Notes: generated from the letters alone by a model not told the origin. Positions 50,372 to 57,062 are shown, counted from the stretch's first letter. The stretch: DNA of 64,000 nt from an uncultured Clostridia bacterium (GCA_944372095.1 CALVYG010000002.1:1-64000); one strand, 5' to 3'. Made by a program: numbers and translations.

Positions 50372-50401
50372 TTGAATTATTCCCCTCGCGTATGTTATAC
50401 T
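50372..50401 (+). promoter_or_regulatory. promoter of the release-factor-like/helicase operon
   Basis: TTGAAT at 50372-50377, 18-nt spacer, TATACT at 50396-50401. Seven nucleotides later comes an ATG (50409) of an 8-codon ORF. Confidence 0.75.
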
Positions 50402-50408
50402 TATAATT

Positions 50409-50435
50409 ATGGAAACGCGGGGTAAAAAGGTATGA
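50409..50435 (+). CDS. 8-codon leaderless leader ORF overlapping the release-factor-like start
   Basis: ATG at 50409 lies 7 nt after the -10 box, the same spacing as in three leaderless genes of this window. It reads METRGKKV and stops at UGA 50433-50435, which overlaps the ATG at 50432 (ATGA). No other good ribosome site for the next gene is seen (AAAAAGG is only 1 nt from the ATG), so termination-reinitiation could deliver ribosomes to it. The peptide itself is probably not functional. Confidence 0.5.
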
Positions 50436-51457
50436 ACGGTATTTTCGACGGTATAATCGCCGCTTCCGAAAAAACTCTCGAACATTTCTATTCGCTAGAA
50501 GAAATGCTCGAATATCCGGAAGTTCAGGCGGATAAGGCTTACTATTTATCCCTGCTTGCGCAGTACGATAAATTGAAATCCGTTCATATGAAACTATGCG
50601 AACTTAAAAAGACGCTTAAAGAAGAACAAGCCGTTTTAACGCTCGTCTCCCCTTCCGCAACCGAAGAAGAAAATAAACTTTACTCGGAAGAAGCGGCGGA
50701 GTTACGGCAAAAAGCCGAATCGGCGGGAAGAGAGCTTGCCTCTTTGCTCGGCGGAGAAAACGTAAAGGAATTTGCATTCTGCCGTATACGGTTTACGGGC
50801 GAAACCGCCGCAAAAACGGGACAGAAGTTTTATGTCTGCACGGAAAATTACCTTTCCTCACACGGCGTAACGGTAAAAGACGTAAAAAAGATTTTTGCGA
50901 AAAACAACGCGTTTATTCGTGAAATTTCGTTCAAGGCGGAAGGAGCAGACGCGCTTTTGATTTTAAAAACGCTTTGCGGCGCGCATAAAGTAATCGTCCC
51001 GAACGCCCCGTCGGAAGAAATTCTTTTTGCCGCAACGGCGGCGGAACGCCTTTTTTCCCCGCCTGCGGACAGCGAACTGAAAACGGATTTGTTCCATTCC
51101 GGCGGCGCGGGCGGTCAAAATATAAATAAAGTCGAAACCGCAGTAAGAATCACTCATATTCCCTCGGGAATCGTAGTCACCTGTCAGGACGAACGCTCGC
51201 AGCTTAAAAACAAACGCCGCGCTTTGGAAAATCTTACCGCCAAACTCGCGGAAAAACACTACGAAACCGAAAAAATAAGAATCGAAGCGGATTTCAAAAG
51301 ACAATTCTCGTCACACCGTTCGCCTCTTTCGTTCGATACGGCAAACGCAACAATGACCGATACGAGACTTACCTCGGGAAACGAAAAACTTCCGTTCCCT
51401 CCCGACGATAAAACTTTCGCTTCATACATAACGAATCTGATTGCTTTAAGGAAATAA
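50432..51457 (+). CDS. divergent class-I peptide chain release factor homologue
   Basis: A 341-residue RF1/RF2-type protein. Residues 1-110 are helical like RF domain 1. Domain 2/4 follows, and the catalytic loop [11 protein letters not shown] carries GGQ at 227-229, followed by [32 protein letters not shown], the conserved end of the RF-1 domain. The stop-codon reading region is altered. Where RF1 has GVHRVQRVPxTE then GRIHTS, this protein has [14 protein letters not shown] with a shortened loop; neither PxT, SPF nor the IHTS residues remain. It should hydrolyse peptidyl-tRNA on the ribosome but not read stop codons normally, so a rescue role is plausible. Length matches RFs. First main gene of the four-gene operon. 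Confidence 0.8.
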
Positions 51458-51460
51458 ACC

Positions 51461-53875
51461 GTGGAAAAATTTACGCAGCAAGTCACCGTAAATACCGAAA
51501 AAATTATACTGTCGGGCACCCGATGCGTTTATAAAACGGAAAATCTGATTTCGATGACGAGAAAAATTCCGTCAATCGACGATTTTATTTCACGCACCGC
51601 CGAAGCGTTTTTTTCGCTGAACCCGAAATCATCGGACCAAAACGGAAAATATTTCGCCGCGGAAACGGAAAACAAAAAATTTACGTTGTTTTTCCGCCTC
51701 GGCGGACATAACGACAGCCGTCTTACGCGCGACGATATTGTCTTTTATAAATTCATCTCGGCAAACGGCGAAGAAAGCGGCACGGACAGGAGTCTGTCAG
51801 AATATCTCTTGTCAAATCCCGTATTCGTGCTTACGCTTACCGAGCAATCGGACAAGCCCGACGAAAGGGATTTTTCAAAACTCTATCTCGTAAGCGGCGG
51901 AGACGGCGTTAATTTCCCTCTTTTAAGCCCCGTTCAACGCAAAATAGTTGAAACCGAAAACGCAAATATGCTCGTTCAGGGCGTTGCGGGCAGCGGAAAA
52001 ACCAACGTCTGCGTCGAAAAAATCGTCTACTGCGCTTGCCGCAGATACAGAGGTAAAATTTTATATACCACCTTTTCACGCGCTCTGATTACCGAAACGA
52101 AAAAACGCGTATCCCTTTTCCTTAAAAACATTGAGAATTTTACCGAAAAATTCAGAAAAGGCAACGTAGTTTTTCTCGACGATAACCATAAAAAAGCCAT
52201 TGAAAACAAATTGGGTATTGTATTCGATACGGACAGCGACGAAAAAATAGCCGAATCCCTTGAAAATATCGCTTATTTCCTTAAAAACAAAGTCGATTAT
52301 AAACTTATTGAAGACATATACGCCGATAAATTCGACAAAAAACGCACGGCAAACGAATCGTTTTTCATTAACGAATACGTCGGAGAAAGAAAAAATTACC
52401 GTCTGTCCGGCGCGCTTGACAAAATAAAAAATCTTTCGCTCGAAATTATTTATAAAGAAATTTACGGAATGATTTTCGGAAAATACGAGTTGGATTCTCC
52501 GTCCGATATGATGACGCGCGAAGAATACGCGGAAGCCAGAAAAGACAGTTTTTCGCGTAACGAATGCGACGTCATTTACTCCGTCGCGCTCGATTACGCC
52601 GCGTTTCTCGGGAAAAATTCAATTACCGACAACAATGCTATGAGCAGAGAACTTCTTTCTGCCGTTTCTTCGCCGCAGTATTCCGTGGGAATAATCGACG
52701 AAGCGCAGGATTTTACTCAGGTTAATCTCTGTCTTATCAAAAAACTCTGTATAAAACTTTTCTGCGTCGGAGACGCTTTACAAATGATAAATCCGTCCTA
52801 TTTCGGCTTCGGATATCTTAAACGGCTTATGTACGGGGACGTAACCGGTGTCACCGAACTTAAACACAACTACCGCAGCTCGGAAAAAATTGAAAAAATA
52901 GCGGAAAAACTCGGCGAATTGAACGTAAAAAGGTTCGGAACGCACAGTTTCGTTCTGAAAGGAGAAAGCGTGGACTCGGGGACGCCCACCGCCGCCGTAT
53001 TCGTTCACGACAAGGATTTCGCCTCTTCTCTTAAAGACAAGCGTTTTGAAAACGTCACCGTAATCGTCGCTTCGCAGAAGAAAAAAGAGTATCTGCGCTC
53101 CAAACTCGCAAAAACGGAAATTCTTACCGTAGCGGAAGCCAAAGGTCTCGAACGCAACACCGTTATTCTGGCGGACGTATTAAGCGACAACGCCGACAAA
53201 TGGCATTATCTCCAAAATATGTCTTTGAACAGAAAAACCGCTGACGAAAATTCCGTCTTCCGTTATTATTTCAATCTGTTTTACGTCGGAATTTCACGCG
53301 CAAAACAATATTTATTCGTATCGGAATCGAATTATCCTCCGATTTTCGAAAATTTGTTTTCCGAATGTTTTGAAAAAAAATCAAAGTCGGAAGCTGTCGG
53401 ATTTTTATCGGAAGTCGCTGGAAAAATAGAACTTGACGACGAAGAACTTATCGAAAGAATAAGAAAATTCTGCGAACTCGAACAGTACGAAAACGCGCTG
53501 TTTACCGCAGACAGACTGTCTGACGACAAACTCCGCGAGGAAGAACGAAACCGTATCTATATAAGCGAACGCTATCTGCGTTACGGAAACGACCGCGAAG
53601 CGGGTATAGAATATTGGAAACGCGGAATGGAACGGGACGCACGCGAAGCGTTTATCCGCTCGGGCGACGAAAAACTCCTTCCGTTAATGGACGCCTGCTC
53701 GGGCGGCGGAGGCGGAACGCTCGACGTCGATATCGTACGTTTCTTCCCTCTCGTCTCAGACAACGACATCGCGAAAAAACTTATCATTGACACAGTTAAA
53801 AACGATTATAACACAATTATGGGTATCCAAAAATCATTAAACGATTCCCTTAAACCCAAAAGGAGAAAACAATGA
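51461..53875 (+). CDS. UvrD/Rep-like SF1 helicase with extra N- and C-terminal regions
   Basis: An 804-residue superfamily 1A helicase. After a 150-residue N-terminal region without a known match come the Q-motif LLSPVQRKIV (about 154-163), Walker A QGVAGSGKTN (about 173-182), motif Ia TTFSRAL, Walker B IIDEAQDFT (about 409-417), motif III GDALQMI, motif IV ELKHNYRSSEKI (about 465), motif V TVAEAKGLERNTV and motif VI YVGISRAKQYLFV (about 608-620). Inserts between Ia and II are helical. The last 180 residues form a helical repeat-like tail. It should translocate on single-stranded nucleic acid with ATP. GTG start after AAGGAA, 3 nt past the release-factor-like stop; its stop overlaps the next gene by 4 nt. 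Confidence 0.85.
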   Translation: MEKFTQQVTVNTEKIILSGTRCVYKTENLISMTRKIPSIDDFISRTAEAFFSLNPKSSDQNGKYFAAETENKKFTLFFRLGGHNDSRLTRDDIVFYKFISANGEESGTDRSLSEYLLSNPVFVLTLTEQSDKPDERDFSKLYLVSGGDGVNFPLLSPVQRKIVETENANMLVQGVAGSGKTNVCVEKIVYCACRRYRGKILYTTFSRALITETKKRVSLFLKNIENFTEKFRKGNVVFLDDNHKKAIENKLGIVFDTDSDEKIAESLENIAYFLKNKVDYKLIEDIYADKFDKKRTANESFFINEYVGERKNYRLSGALDKIKNLSLEIIYKEIYGMIFGKYELDSPSDMMTREEYAEARKDSFSRNECDVIYSVALDYAAFLGKNSITDNNAMSRELLSAVSSPQYSVGIIDEAQDFTQVNLCLIKKLCIKLFCVGDALQMINPSYFGFGYLKRLMYGDVTGVTELKHNYRSSEKIEKIAEKLGELNVKRFGTHSFVLKGESVDSGTPTAAVFVHDKDFASSLKDKRFENVTVIVASQKKKEYLRSKLAKTEILTVAEAKGLERNTVILADVLSDNADKWHYLQNMSLNRKTADENSVFRYYFNLFYVGISRAKQYLFVSESNYPPIFENLFSECFEKKSKSEAVGFLSEVAGKIELDDEELIERIRKFCELEQYENALFTADRLSDDKLREEERNRIYISERYLRYGNDREAGIEYWKRGMERDAREAFIRSGDEKLLPLMDACSGGGGGTLDVDIVRFFPLVSDNDIAKKLIIDTVKNDYNTIMGIQKSLNDSLKPKRRKQ

Positions 53876-54591
53876 GCGACATCAGCGAACTTAAAGAACT
53901 TATCGACAGTTTCGTTGCCTACCGCAACGTTCTGGTTCCTCTGCAAGAAAGTCTCAAATCCATATCCGATACTTTTTTTTCCATACGCGACGACCTTGAC
54001 GGAATGAATAAAGCGTTTTCGGGAAACGCCGGCGCACAGCTCGAAAAAATTCATTCCACTCTTAACGCTCAGGCTGACAGCGGACGGGAACTCACAAGAA
54101 AAATCGAAGAGTTTTCCGTTTCCGGTGAAAAATATGCGCGCTCGGTCGATGAAATGCTGAAAAAATTCGACGAGGTCGGCAAACGCCTCGCAACGGTAAA
54201 CGAACTTGAAAAAAACGCGGAAAATATTCTTTCGCGTCTTGAAACGGTTATCGCGGAAAAACGCGCTTCATACAACCTTAAAGATTTACAGAAATCTCTC
54301 GATTCCTATAATATGAACGTTGAAAAAATAAGTGATTTCATAAATAAAGACGTCGCTTCTGTTTTACAGGAAAACGCCAAAAAAATCGAACAGATAAAAA
54401 AGGAAAACGAATTGCTTTCCGCCGCCGTCAACGAACAGAACAAAACGGTTGCGGAACTTACTCTGACTTTCCGCGAAACGTCTTCCCTGCTTAAAAAAGC
54501 CGCCGAAAGCGGCACCGTTAACGAAGAGTATCTCTTCGACGCCTTCGACAAATGGGCGGCTGACAGAAAAGTTAAAATAAAGAAAAAATAA
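53872..54591 (+). CDS. coiled-coil protein of the helicase operon
   Basis: A 239-residue protein that is almost all helix: SDISELKELIDSFVAYRNVL, LQESLKSISDTFFSIRDDLD, then several heptad stretches and a basic end (KWAADRKVKIKKK). No membrane segment, no signal, no enzyme motif. The start overlaps the helicase stop (ATGA) with AAGGAG upstream, so its amount is tied to the helicase. It may scaffold the helicase or link it to the membrane protein encoded 4 nt downstream; this is inference. Confidence 0.7.
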   Translation: MSDISELKELIDSFVAYRNVLVPLQESLKSISDTFFSIRDDLDGMNKAFSGNAGAQLEKIHSTLNAQADSGRELTRKIEEFSVSGEKYARSVDEMLKKFDEVGKRLATVNELEKNAENILSRLETVIAEKRASYNLKDLQKSLDSYNMNVEKISDFINKDVASVLQENAKKIEQIKKENELLSAAVNEQNKTVAELTLTFRETSSLLKKAAESGTVNEEYLFDAFDKWAADRKVKIKKK

Positions 54592-54594
54592 ATT

Positions 54595-56988
54595 ATGAAC
54601 GAACTACTTGCGAAAAAACTGTTCGACAGCATAAAAAAAGACGACCTCAAATCGTTTGACGAATGTATGGAGGAATTTCCGTGCGGAACCTTGCGTTTCG
54701 GACGTTTTCCCGTTTTATCGCTTTTATATTTGTTCTCCGCAAAGAAAATTACCGCCGCATACGAGGAAAAGTTTCTGAAAACCAACTCGTGGCAGGAACT
54801 TGACGAACCTCAGTTCGTTTCGGTTTTGTTCCGTAAAAAAGCGGGCAAATGCTTACGCTTATATCTCGACGAGGTTGTTTCTCCTCTCGAAATGCTTCTA
54901 ATACTTGACAAAACGTCAAAACTTAAACGCGTTTATCCTCTTTCCCGTCCGTCGTCTGCCGTAAAACAGCGTCTTAAAGAAATTTATTTCGTCAAATACG
55001 CTCTGAACGTAAGCTACGAGGGAGACAATATCGTTCTCGACAGACGTCCGTTGAAAAAATCGGAAAAACGCCGTATACTCATTGCCGCAGTAAGCTCGGT
55101 TCTTTGTATTGCGATTGCGGTCGGAACTCCGTTCGTTGTCAACGCTTTCGTGCCGTTTATCGGAATTTCCGACGACAATCCGTCAACGCCCGACAATCCC
55201 TCGGACGGCGGAAATACCGATAATCCCGATAATCCTTCCGACGATACGGAGAAAAAATATTATAACGTTTCGTCTTTCGAAGAAATAGATTTTGCTTCGC
55301 AAAACGTCTATACCCTCACCGCCGATATTACGGTTCCGAACGGTTTTTACGCCGAACAACTGAACTGTGAGCTTAACGGCGGCGGCAAAACCGTAACCGT
55401 TTCGGATAATAATCCTTTGTTCGGCGTAGTTACAGGTACGGTAAGAGATATTGTTTTCAGTTTTTCGGGCGATATTTCCGTTTCGGAAAATTTCGCGTTC
55501 GTTACGCTGTTAAACCTCGGAACGATTAAAAACGTCACTTTGAACGTAAGCGGAAAACTTACGGCAACCCTCGGAGAACAATCGACCGACGGCGGAATAA
55601 CCGTCGCCGGAATAGCCGTCGCGAACGGACCGTCAAGTTCAATATTTACCTACGGTCAAATCGATTCCTGTACGGTTAATTACAATGATTTCAATATTGT
55701 CGGAAACGTATACGCAAACGCAACTTACGGCGGAATAGCGGGCACGAATTACGCTTATCTCAGAAACTGCACCGTTTCGGGGAAAATCACTTCCGATACG
55801 CTCGACATTGCGGGAATATGCGTCACGAACAATTATTCTCTTTCGTCTTGCACCAACCGTGCGTCCCTTACCCAGAAATCCTCTTCCCCCGATTGGAACC
55901 CGATTGTTGCGGGAATCGTTACGACAAATTCGCGCTCTCTTACTTCCTGCGTAAATTACGGTGAAATATCCGCTCAATCGGAAAATACCGACACCGCGCA
56001 CGAAGAAAACACCGACCCGTCCGTTTCCGCAGCGGGAATTGCTTACCTTAACAGAGGCACGTTTCCCGCTCTGATAATAAGCCAAAGCATAAATTACGGT
56101 AAAATTTCCGCTTCATCGAAAGACAGAACTTCCTATGCGGCGGGGATATGTATATCGTCGTCAGGCGGAATACGCGAGTGTCTTAACGAGCGCGGCGCCG
56201 ACGTTGTGTCTGAAAACCGTTCGGATTTTTCTTCGTACGGAGGAGGTATTTCCGTATACGCTTACGGCTATGTGTACGGTTCGGTAAATAAAGGCGACGT
56301 TACCGTATCGTCTGCCGAAGGCAACGCTTATTCGGGCGGAATTACGGCTTATTCTTACGTGGAAATATCGCTGTCTCTTTCCTCGGGCAACGTATCTTCG
56401 TCGGGTGCTTCCGCTTACTCCGGCGGAATACTCGCCTATTCGTCCGTTACGTCGAGCGGGAATTTCGTTTACTTCGGTACGGTTACCCAATGTGTATTCA
56501 ACGGTACATTGTCTTCTGTTGCGGAATCGGAAAGTTTTGCCGGAGGCATTGTCGGGTTCGTTGAAGAAAAACTTTTTAACGAAGGCAAGGATTCCGAAAC
56601 CTATTTCGGAGGCGGAGTCACGGAATCGTATTTCACGGGCTCGTTTTCGGGTTCTTCTTCCGCAAGCCGTAACGGAGGCATTGCCGCCGCCTGCGGAAAA
56701 AACATTCACGACAGTAACGCCTATTCGGACAGCGGCGGCAACGTCCACAACAATTTCAAAGACAATTATTTTGTTCCCTCCCTCGACTCTCTGCTTGCCG
56801 TAGGTTTCGTCACGGCGGACGGAACGGCTTTCTCTTCCGGAAGCAACGTCGGCGCTTCTTCCGTTACGATTGACGTCATAAATAATTCGGAAACTTACAA
56901 AAAAATTCTTTCGGCTTTGTCGTCTTTAACCGGTAATACAGGAAATTCCTCCGAGGACACAAACGGCAACGGTGCGGTATCGGTTTGA
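54595..56988 (+). CDS. type-II membrane protein with extracellular beta-helix
   Basis: A 797-residue protein without a signal peptide. Residues 1-158 are a cytoplasmic helical domain (ELLAKKLFDSIKKDDLKSFD, RFGRFPVLSLLYLFSAKK). Residues about 160-188 (RRILIAAVSSVLCIAIAVGT) are the one membrane helix. A linker with repeated DNPSD units (about 193-222) and a long beta-helix of GLUG-like repeats (about 225-790) follow, e.g. NATYGGIAGTNYAYLRNCTV, YAAGICISSSGGIRECLN and AYSGGITAYSYVEISLSL. The basic side before the helix puts the N-terminus inside and the beta-helix outside. It could sense or bind outside and signal inward through the N-terminal domain. Last gene of the operon; followed by a terminator. 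Confidence 0.75.
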   Translation: MNELLAKKLFDSIKKDDLKSFDECMEEFPCGTLRFGRFPVLSLLYLFSAKKITAAYEEKFLKTNSWQELDEPQFVSVLFRKKAGKCLRLYLDEVVSPLEMLLILDKTSKLKRVYPLSRPSSAVKQRLKEIYFVKYALNVSYEGDNIVLDRRPLKKSEKRRILIAAVSSVLCIAIAVGTPFVVNAFVPFIGISDDNPSTPDNPSDGGNTDNPDNPSDDTEKKYYNVSSFEEIDFASQNVYTLTADITVPNGFYAEQLNCELNGGGKTVTVSDNNPLFGVVTGTVRDIVFSFSGDISVSENFAFVTLLNLGTIKNVTLNVSGKLTATLGEQSTDGGITVAGIAVANGPSSSIFTYGQIDSCTVNYNDFNIVGNVYANATYGGIAGTNYAYLRNCTVSGKITSDTLDIAGICVTNNYSLSSCTNRASLTQKSSSPDWNPIVAGIVTTNSRSLTSCVNYGEISAQSENTDTAHEENTDPSVSAAGIAYLNRGTFPALIISQSINYGKISASSKDRTSYAAGICISSSGGIRECLNERGADVVSENRSDFSSYGGGISVYAYGYVYGSVNKGDVTVSSAEGNAYSGGITAYSYVEISLSLSSGNVSSSGASAYSGGILAYSSVTSSGNFVYFGTVTQCVFNGTLSSVAESESFAGGIVGFVEEKLFNEGKDSETYFGGGVTESYFTGSFSGSSSASRNGGIAAACGKNIHDSNAYSDSGGNVHNNFKDNYFVPSLDSLLAVGFVTADGTAFSSGSNVGASSVTIDVINNSETYKKILSALSSLTGNTGNSSEDTNGNGAVSV

Positions 56989-57007
56989 TTCCGTTTCAAA
57001 AAAACAG

Positions 57008-57033
57008 ACAGCCGCGGAATTTCCCGCGGCTGT
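57008..57033. terminator. bidirectional terminator between convergent operons
   Basis: 10-bp stem ACAGCCGCGG / CCGCGGCTGT, 6-nt loop; T-rich on the plus side, seven T on the minus side. Confidence 0.85.
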
Positions 57034-57062
57034 TATTTTATGTTTTACTTTTCATCCGAACT

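Follow-up and report, generated by a model that had tools for sequence, protein, structure and literature searches.

Within a 64,000-nucleotide stretch of DNA from an uncultured Clostridia bacterium (GCA_944372095.1, CALVYG010000002.1:1-64000; hereafter the window), four adjacent genes encode a release-factor paralogue (RF), a superfamily 1 (SF1) helicase (HEL), a coiled-coil protein (CC) and a membrane protein (TM). Comparison across genomes gives good support to the conclusion that these genes form a real, conserved operon-like unit, which dozens of uncultured gut Clostridia have retained in changing surroundings. We tentatively propose that this unit may be a mobile module in which the release of nascent chains, independent of stop codons, is coupled to an event at the cell envelope.

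Conservation, co-inheritance and mobility of the four genes

All four open reading frames (ORFs) lie on the plus strand. RF (50432-51457) encodes a class-I release-factor paralogue of 341 amino acids, with PCRF and RF-1 domains, in which the stop-codon recognition loop is lost; HEL (51461-53875, with a GTG start at 51461) encodes a UvrD-like SF1 helicase of 804 amino acids, CC (53872-54591) a coiled-coil protein of 239 amino acids, and TM (54595-56988) a type II membrane protein of 797 amino acids. The gaps between them are +3, -4 and +3 nucleotides, and the four-gene layout and spacing given in a first-pass annotation of the window were reproduced to the base.

Searching 58 related genomes with HEL yielded orthologues, full-length or split between contigs, in 21 of them. 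A named collection held 114 loci with a HEL relative, and the best 80 of these 114, all from uncultured Clostridia or Christensenella-type metagenome-assembled genomes and similar, were combined with the loci of the relatives into 87 non-redundant loci, which were read with profiles of all four proteins. The order RF-HEL-CC-TM was kept in 73 of the 87, down to about 40% helicase identity, and the estimated gaps lay between -60 and +100 nucleotides in 76 of 79, 84 of 86 and 78 of 81 gene pairs. Nine of the 87 loci end at a contig edge. RF is out of its usual place in L035, L036, L039 and L037, one genome (G028) has HEL split between contigs and RF on a third contig, and in the only rearranged case (G016; locus L053, 6733-9092) CC lies about 0.5 kb away on the strand opposite to HEL, pointing away from it, and HEL runs off the contig. 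One locus (L062) contains the same four genes plus a nearby ordinary RF1; this canonical RF1 is at 1087-2178, about 5 kb upstream of the cassette.

The distribution of release factors followed that of the helicase. An extra release factor was present in all 21 helicase-bearing relatives and in none of the other 37, counts that are not independent, since the genomes share ancestry. The helicase-bearing genomes had three RF-type genes and the other 37 at most two; in one helicase-bearing genome that is 79% complete (G023), the only RF-type gene is the operon RF. All of 14 further genomes, from two other families, carried the operon RF plus ordinary release-factor genes, with three matches each. 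The extra release factor is unlinked in G001, G007, G017 and G028, yet it belongs to the same loop-less family; in G008 it is found just 3' of the operon on the opposite strand, and in G016 it is a divergent member cut by the contig end. The genomes with an unlinked RF are strong evidence for a functional link between RF and the helicase, and, together with the opposite-strand arrangement, they mean that the four proteins need not form a fixed complex.

Of the 396 genomes of the order, 64 have a HEL orthologue, and these belong to nine or more families, while 398 genomes of the wider phylum gave no HEL orthologue, just distant SF1 helicases. Even within a genus the cassette is patchy, G002, G003, G005 and G009 being without it. 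Its flanks are almost never conserved across all loci, even where HEL identity exceeds 80%. In two genera the flanks had 7% and 3% of ORFs in common, with zero sharing in 13 of 15 and 19 of 21 pairs, compared with 39-52%, and never zero, for the control flanks of canonical RF1 and RF2. Since close relatives keep the cassette but share so few of its flanking genes, we conclude that the cassette moves as one unit. Moreover, its proteins diverge faster than RF1 does between the same genome pairs (for example, 84% for HEL, 71% for RF and 62% for TM versus 97% for RF1). A phage- or plasmid-borne cassette was considered and rejected, as no relative was found in the phage collections IMG/VR and INPHARED and plasmids gave only remote UvrD-like matches (below 60% identity, none covering 80%). 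A defence island was likewise rejected, the immediate neighbours being mostly metabolic with a few Thoeris- or Abi-like genes, judged without a background rate.

Co-inheritance, kept order, tight spacing and non-conserved flanks all argue against adjacency by chance without a functional link; we found nothing in favour of that explanation, which we consider extremely improbable. The first-pass annotation had left room for such chance linkage, and here the data contradict it. It had also named homologues scattered in related genomes as the observation that would speak against an operon; what we observed was the order kept in most loci and an extra RF in every helicase-bearing genome.

The same annotation had assigned one promoter and one terminator to the operon. 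The terminator is borne out by a strong bidirectional hairpin (57007-57034; 11 bp, 8 of them G-C) in the gap between TM and the next gene, which is convergent with it. A consensus scan also found a single sigma-70-like promoter candidate 5' of the operon (50372-50401, plus strand; TTGAAT-18-TATACT, with TG before the -10), but the frequency of such matches in the region, 13 against 9.7 expected, is near chance.

The release-factor paralogue

RF matches the RF-1 (1.2e-27) and PCRF (4.7e-9) domains and thus has the architecture of RF1 and RF2, including the GGQ catalytic motif, whose codons lie at 51110-51118 on the plus strand (residues 227-229). GGQ is kept in 84 of 84 family members, whereas PxT is found in 0 of 84 and the alpha-5 GGxE in 1 of 84; every member has a shortened recognition loop. 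In the window, alignments place the counterpart of the RF1 recognition loop, RVPETESQGRVH, at 50984-51022 (plus strand), shortened and without PxT or SPF; SPF is likewise not listed for the recognition loop of the family. In a tree of 45 family and 22 canonical sequences, the family splits cleanly from RF1 and RF2 with a support of 0.99, and RF scores 126 and 117 bits against RF1 and RF2 cut-offs of 400 and 370. Two other release-factor genes elsewhere in the same genome were read as RF1 and RF2. Judged by its sequence, RF is a new monophyletic class-I release-factor paralogue, which, from the established mechanism of release factors, is expected to hydrolyse peptidyl-tRNA without reading stop codons. 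The earlier label 'peptidyl-tRNA hydrolase-like' would fit an intact GGQ combined with the predicted loss of stop-codon reading. An AbiEi match of RF (17 bits) was set aside as a family-level cross-match.

Stop-codon-independent hydrolysis of peptidyl-tRNA, as carried out by ArfB/ICT1 and mtRF-R, is expected of RF too; however, those are short single-domain proteins, whereas RF is full length and scores 43 bits in the ArfB model, for which the cut-off is 100. The nearest precedent is PrfH-RtcB, in which an extra class-I release factor with intact GGQ also resides in a small operon and is also sporadic and mobile (PMC1586002, PMC6514570, PMC9223846). PrfH is thought to free the peptide from damaged ribosomes (PMC1586002, PMC6514570, PMC9223846), rescue by release factors in biological conflict has been argued for (PMC6514570), and RtcB2-PrfH protects E. 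coli against colicin E3 (PMC9223846). But PrfH is without domain 1 and has kept the recognition tripeptide, whereas the RF described here has kept domain 1 (PCRF) and lost the tripeptide loop, and it is accompanied not by the RNA ligase RtcB but by a helicase, a coiled-coil protein and a membrane protein with a beta-helix. The NCBIfam PrfH score of RF is 72.9 bits against a cut-off of 166.65. The module is not PrfH-RtcB.

The helicase, coiled-coil and membrane proteins

HEL contains a UvrD-helicase domain (7.7e-15) plus UvrD_C, and its SF1 motifs I, II, III, V and VI are invariant or nearly so in 43 sequences. Both Walker motifs are on the plus strand: Walker A, GVAGSGKTN (51980-52006, residues 174-182), is invariant in the alignments, with V175 nearly so, and in Walker B, DEAQD (52697-52711, residues 413-417), DExQD is invariant. 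An AlphaFold2 (AF2) model of HEL, with a mean predicted local distance difference test (pLDDT) score of 84, had Rep, UvrD and PcrA as its best folds, followed by HelD, with Z of 19-23 over residues 147-648. HEL thus resembles UvrD/PcrA/Rep, HelD and GajB in its SF1 core with all motifs, but its N- and C-terminal regions are distinct from theirs, and its scores in the UvrD, PcrA, Rep and HelD equivalog models are 32-43 bits against cut-offs of 419-1144. The C-terminal region (53393-53872, plus strand; residues 645-804) is all-helical in the AF2 model, and the N-terminal domain (51461-51910, plus strand; residues 1-150), which has no family match, has the predicted order beta-alpha-alpha-beta-beta-beta-alpha-beta.

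The idea of a RelE-like N-terminus was prompted by inspection by eye of distant SF1 helicases (L055-L057 and L153-L157) and by a compatible order of secondary structure. Comparison with ParE/RelE gave no Pfam or PDB-profile support, hhalign against ParE sequences of the same order did no better than controls, and a whole-model fold search barely covered the domain; N-terminal profiles of near and distant helicases matched each other weakly, at 15% probability. Those distant loci have features of their own. In L055, L056 and L057, from one genus (g3), the helicase (HEL profile 1e-41 to 1e-44) is followed by a small coiled-coil gene (CC profile 2.4e-7 in L056), after which L056 and L057 have a giant lipoprotein gene on the same strand, with List-Bact and LRR repeats in L057; these loci are possibly a sister system. 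L153-L157, from other Bacillota, have distant SF1 helicases with C-terminal TPR repeats in L153 and ankyrin repeats in L154 and L155, and in L156 a 234-amino-acid helical gene directly downstream.

CC had no domain match, but its ends are conserved, with YR..L.P at the N-terminus and VNExYxFDxxDKWAxxRKVKxKK at the C-terminus. TM is predicted to consist of a cytosolic domain, one membrane helix and an outer beta-helix. Its helical cytosolic domain (54595-55044, plus strand; residues 1-150; pLDDT 83-98) contains an invariant GRF and R88, and it is possibly ankyrin-like: Foldseek gave weak ankyrin/DARPin matches to TM (E about 0.5-2), which we assigned to this domain by reading, the output giving no aligned range. 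The membrane helix (55066-55146, plus strand; residues 158-184, with a model helix at 155-184) is rich in K and R on its N-terminal side, which argues for an N-in orientation. The ectodomain (55258-56934, plus strand; residues 222-780) is modelled by AF2 as a confident beta-helix, the mean pLDDT of TM being 90, and has weak fold matches to IgA1-protease and tailspike beta-helices (E 0.02 and weaker). N344, N385, N412 and N445 are invariant in it, W434 and Q427 are kept in at least 90%, and P436 in 91% of a wider set. Pfam found nothing in the TM of the window and GLUG motifs in 13 of 38 relatives. In many relatives TM terminates with a short conserved YW(E/G) motif, which is missing from the TM of the window.

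Considering known defence systems, PADLOC gave a HEL-GajB match of 69 bits and no GajA match among the four proteins, and we rejected HEL as a GajB, such matches being family-level cross-matches with no adjacent GajA. Zorya is no closer, since its ZorA/ZorB proton channel is missing and the sole match is of the CC coiled coil to the ZorA tail (27 bits). No PADLOC model fits the four-gene set, and in the open-access literature we found no description that links such a release factor with a helicase and a membrane protein. Thus, the module fits no known system and is apparently undescribed, in agreement with the first-pass annotation, to which the set was not known as a described system.

The fold of HEL raises the possibility that HEL, CC and TM form a DNA-handling unit, for uptake, restriction of incoming DNA or attachment of the chromosome to the membrane, with RF as a separate rescue factor travelling along. 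The closest solved folds of HEL are indeed those of DNA helicases, the weak GajB matches point the same way, and the three genes are still adjacent where RF has moved away. Against it, RF is never missing, either in the 21 helicase-bearing relatives or in the 14 further genomes; we regard this alternative as quite unlikely.

A proposed link between envelope and ribosome

In the coupling that we propose, TM would sit in the membrane, its outer beta-helix sensing or binding something and its helical domain facing the inside, where it would recruit a complex of HEL and CC. HEL would travel along single-stranded nucleic acid, the likeliest being mRNA at ribosomes that are stalled or damaged, and the stop-codon-blind RF with its intact GGQ would enter the A site and hydrolyse peptidyl-tRNA. 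The occasion might be phage, toxin or envelope stress that jams ribosomes. Because of the features of RF, the module probably acts on translation at the ribosome, and its mobility, patchiness and rate of change suggest a role in conflict or stress; the HEL-CC-TM complex, the RNA substrate, sensing and its transmission, and the physiological role are what we infer beyond this. The surface-coupled stress or defence response suggested by the first-pass annotation gains indirect support from the same mobility, patchiness and fast evolution, but not from the neighbouring genes, which form no defence island.

Several observations weigh against the proposed coupling. RF is unlinked in four genomes and in a fifth lies 3' of the operon on the other strand; the nearest solved relatives of HEL are DNA helicases, RNA being its substrate by inference; the genes next to the cassette are a mixture, metabolic for the most part, with few that serve defence; the phage collections hold no relative; and SmpB and RqcH are encoded in the same genome and in most helicase-bearing relatives, so that basic rescue by tmRNA/SmpB and RqcH is already covered. 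As SmpB and RqcH co-occur with the module, we rejected its being a replacement for tmRNA or RqcH; it would therefore add to basic rescue.

Such an addition could also be purely physiological, in the quality control of membrane and secreted proteins: TM would mark translocon-engaged ribosomes, HEL and CC would clear the mRNA, and RF would free chains stuck in the translocon. The link that TM provides to the membrane, the co-inheritance of RF and helicase, and the general rather than membrane-specific nature of rescue by tmRNA/SmpB and RqcH would all suit this role; nevertheless, core quality control would not be expected to be patchy within a genus, mobile in position and fast-evolving, and we consider this role improbable. 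The very same mobility and fast, patchy evolution, together with a codon-blind RF and a surface beta-helix that diverges more than any other part, would be in line with abortive infection, in which TM senses phage at the surface and RF acts as a toxic effector, ending translation at random codons. This explanation is also doubtful, given that the context is not that of a defence island and that PADLOC models do not match the set. Within the proposed coupling, we somewhat favour the rescue of ribosomes that jam under phage, toxin or envelope attack over a deliberate shut-off of translation, because a codon-blind release factor would be lethal if freely active and because the closest precedent, PrfH-RtcB, is protective.

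It is possible, if on balance unlikely, that the module represents an undescribed class of bacterial system: through an extracellular sensor, a membrane protein would control a helicase and a stop-codon-blind release factor, so that an outside event directly ends or rescues translation. To our knowledge, release factors blind to stop codons are rare, and those known act in rescue or conflict. The one described here is inherited together with a helicase, a coiled-coil protein and a surface-exposed membrane protein, in a mobile cassette that roughly one in six of the sampled genomes from an order of uncultured gut Clostridia contain. If the proposed coupling is true, it would connect the cell surface with translation termination, which no described system known to us does. 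It would also add a class-I release-factor family that the 2019 survey of release factors (PMC6514570) does not include.

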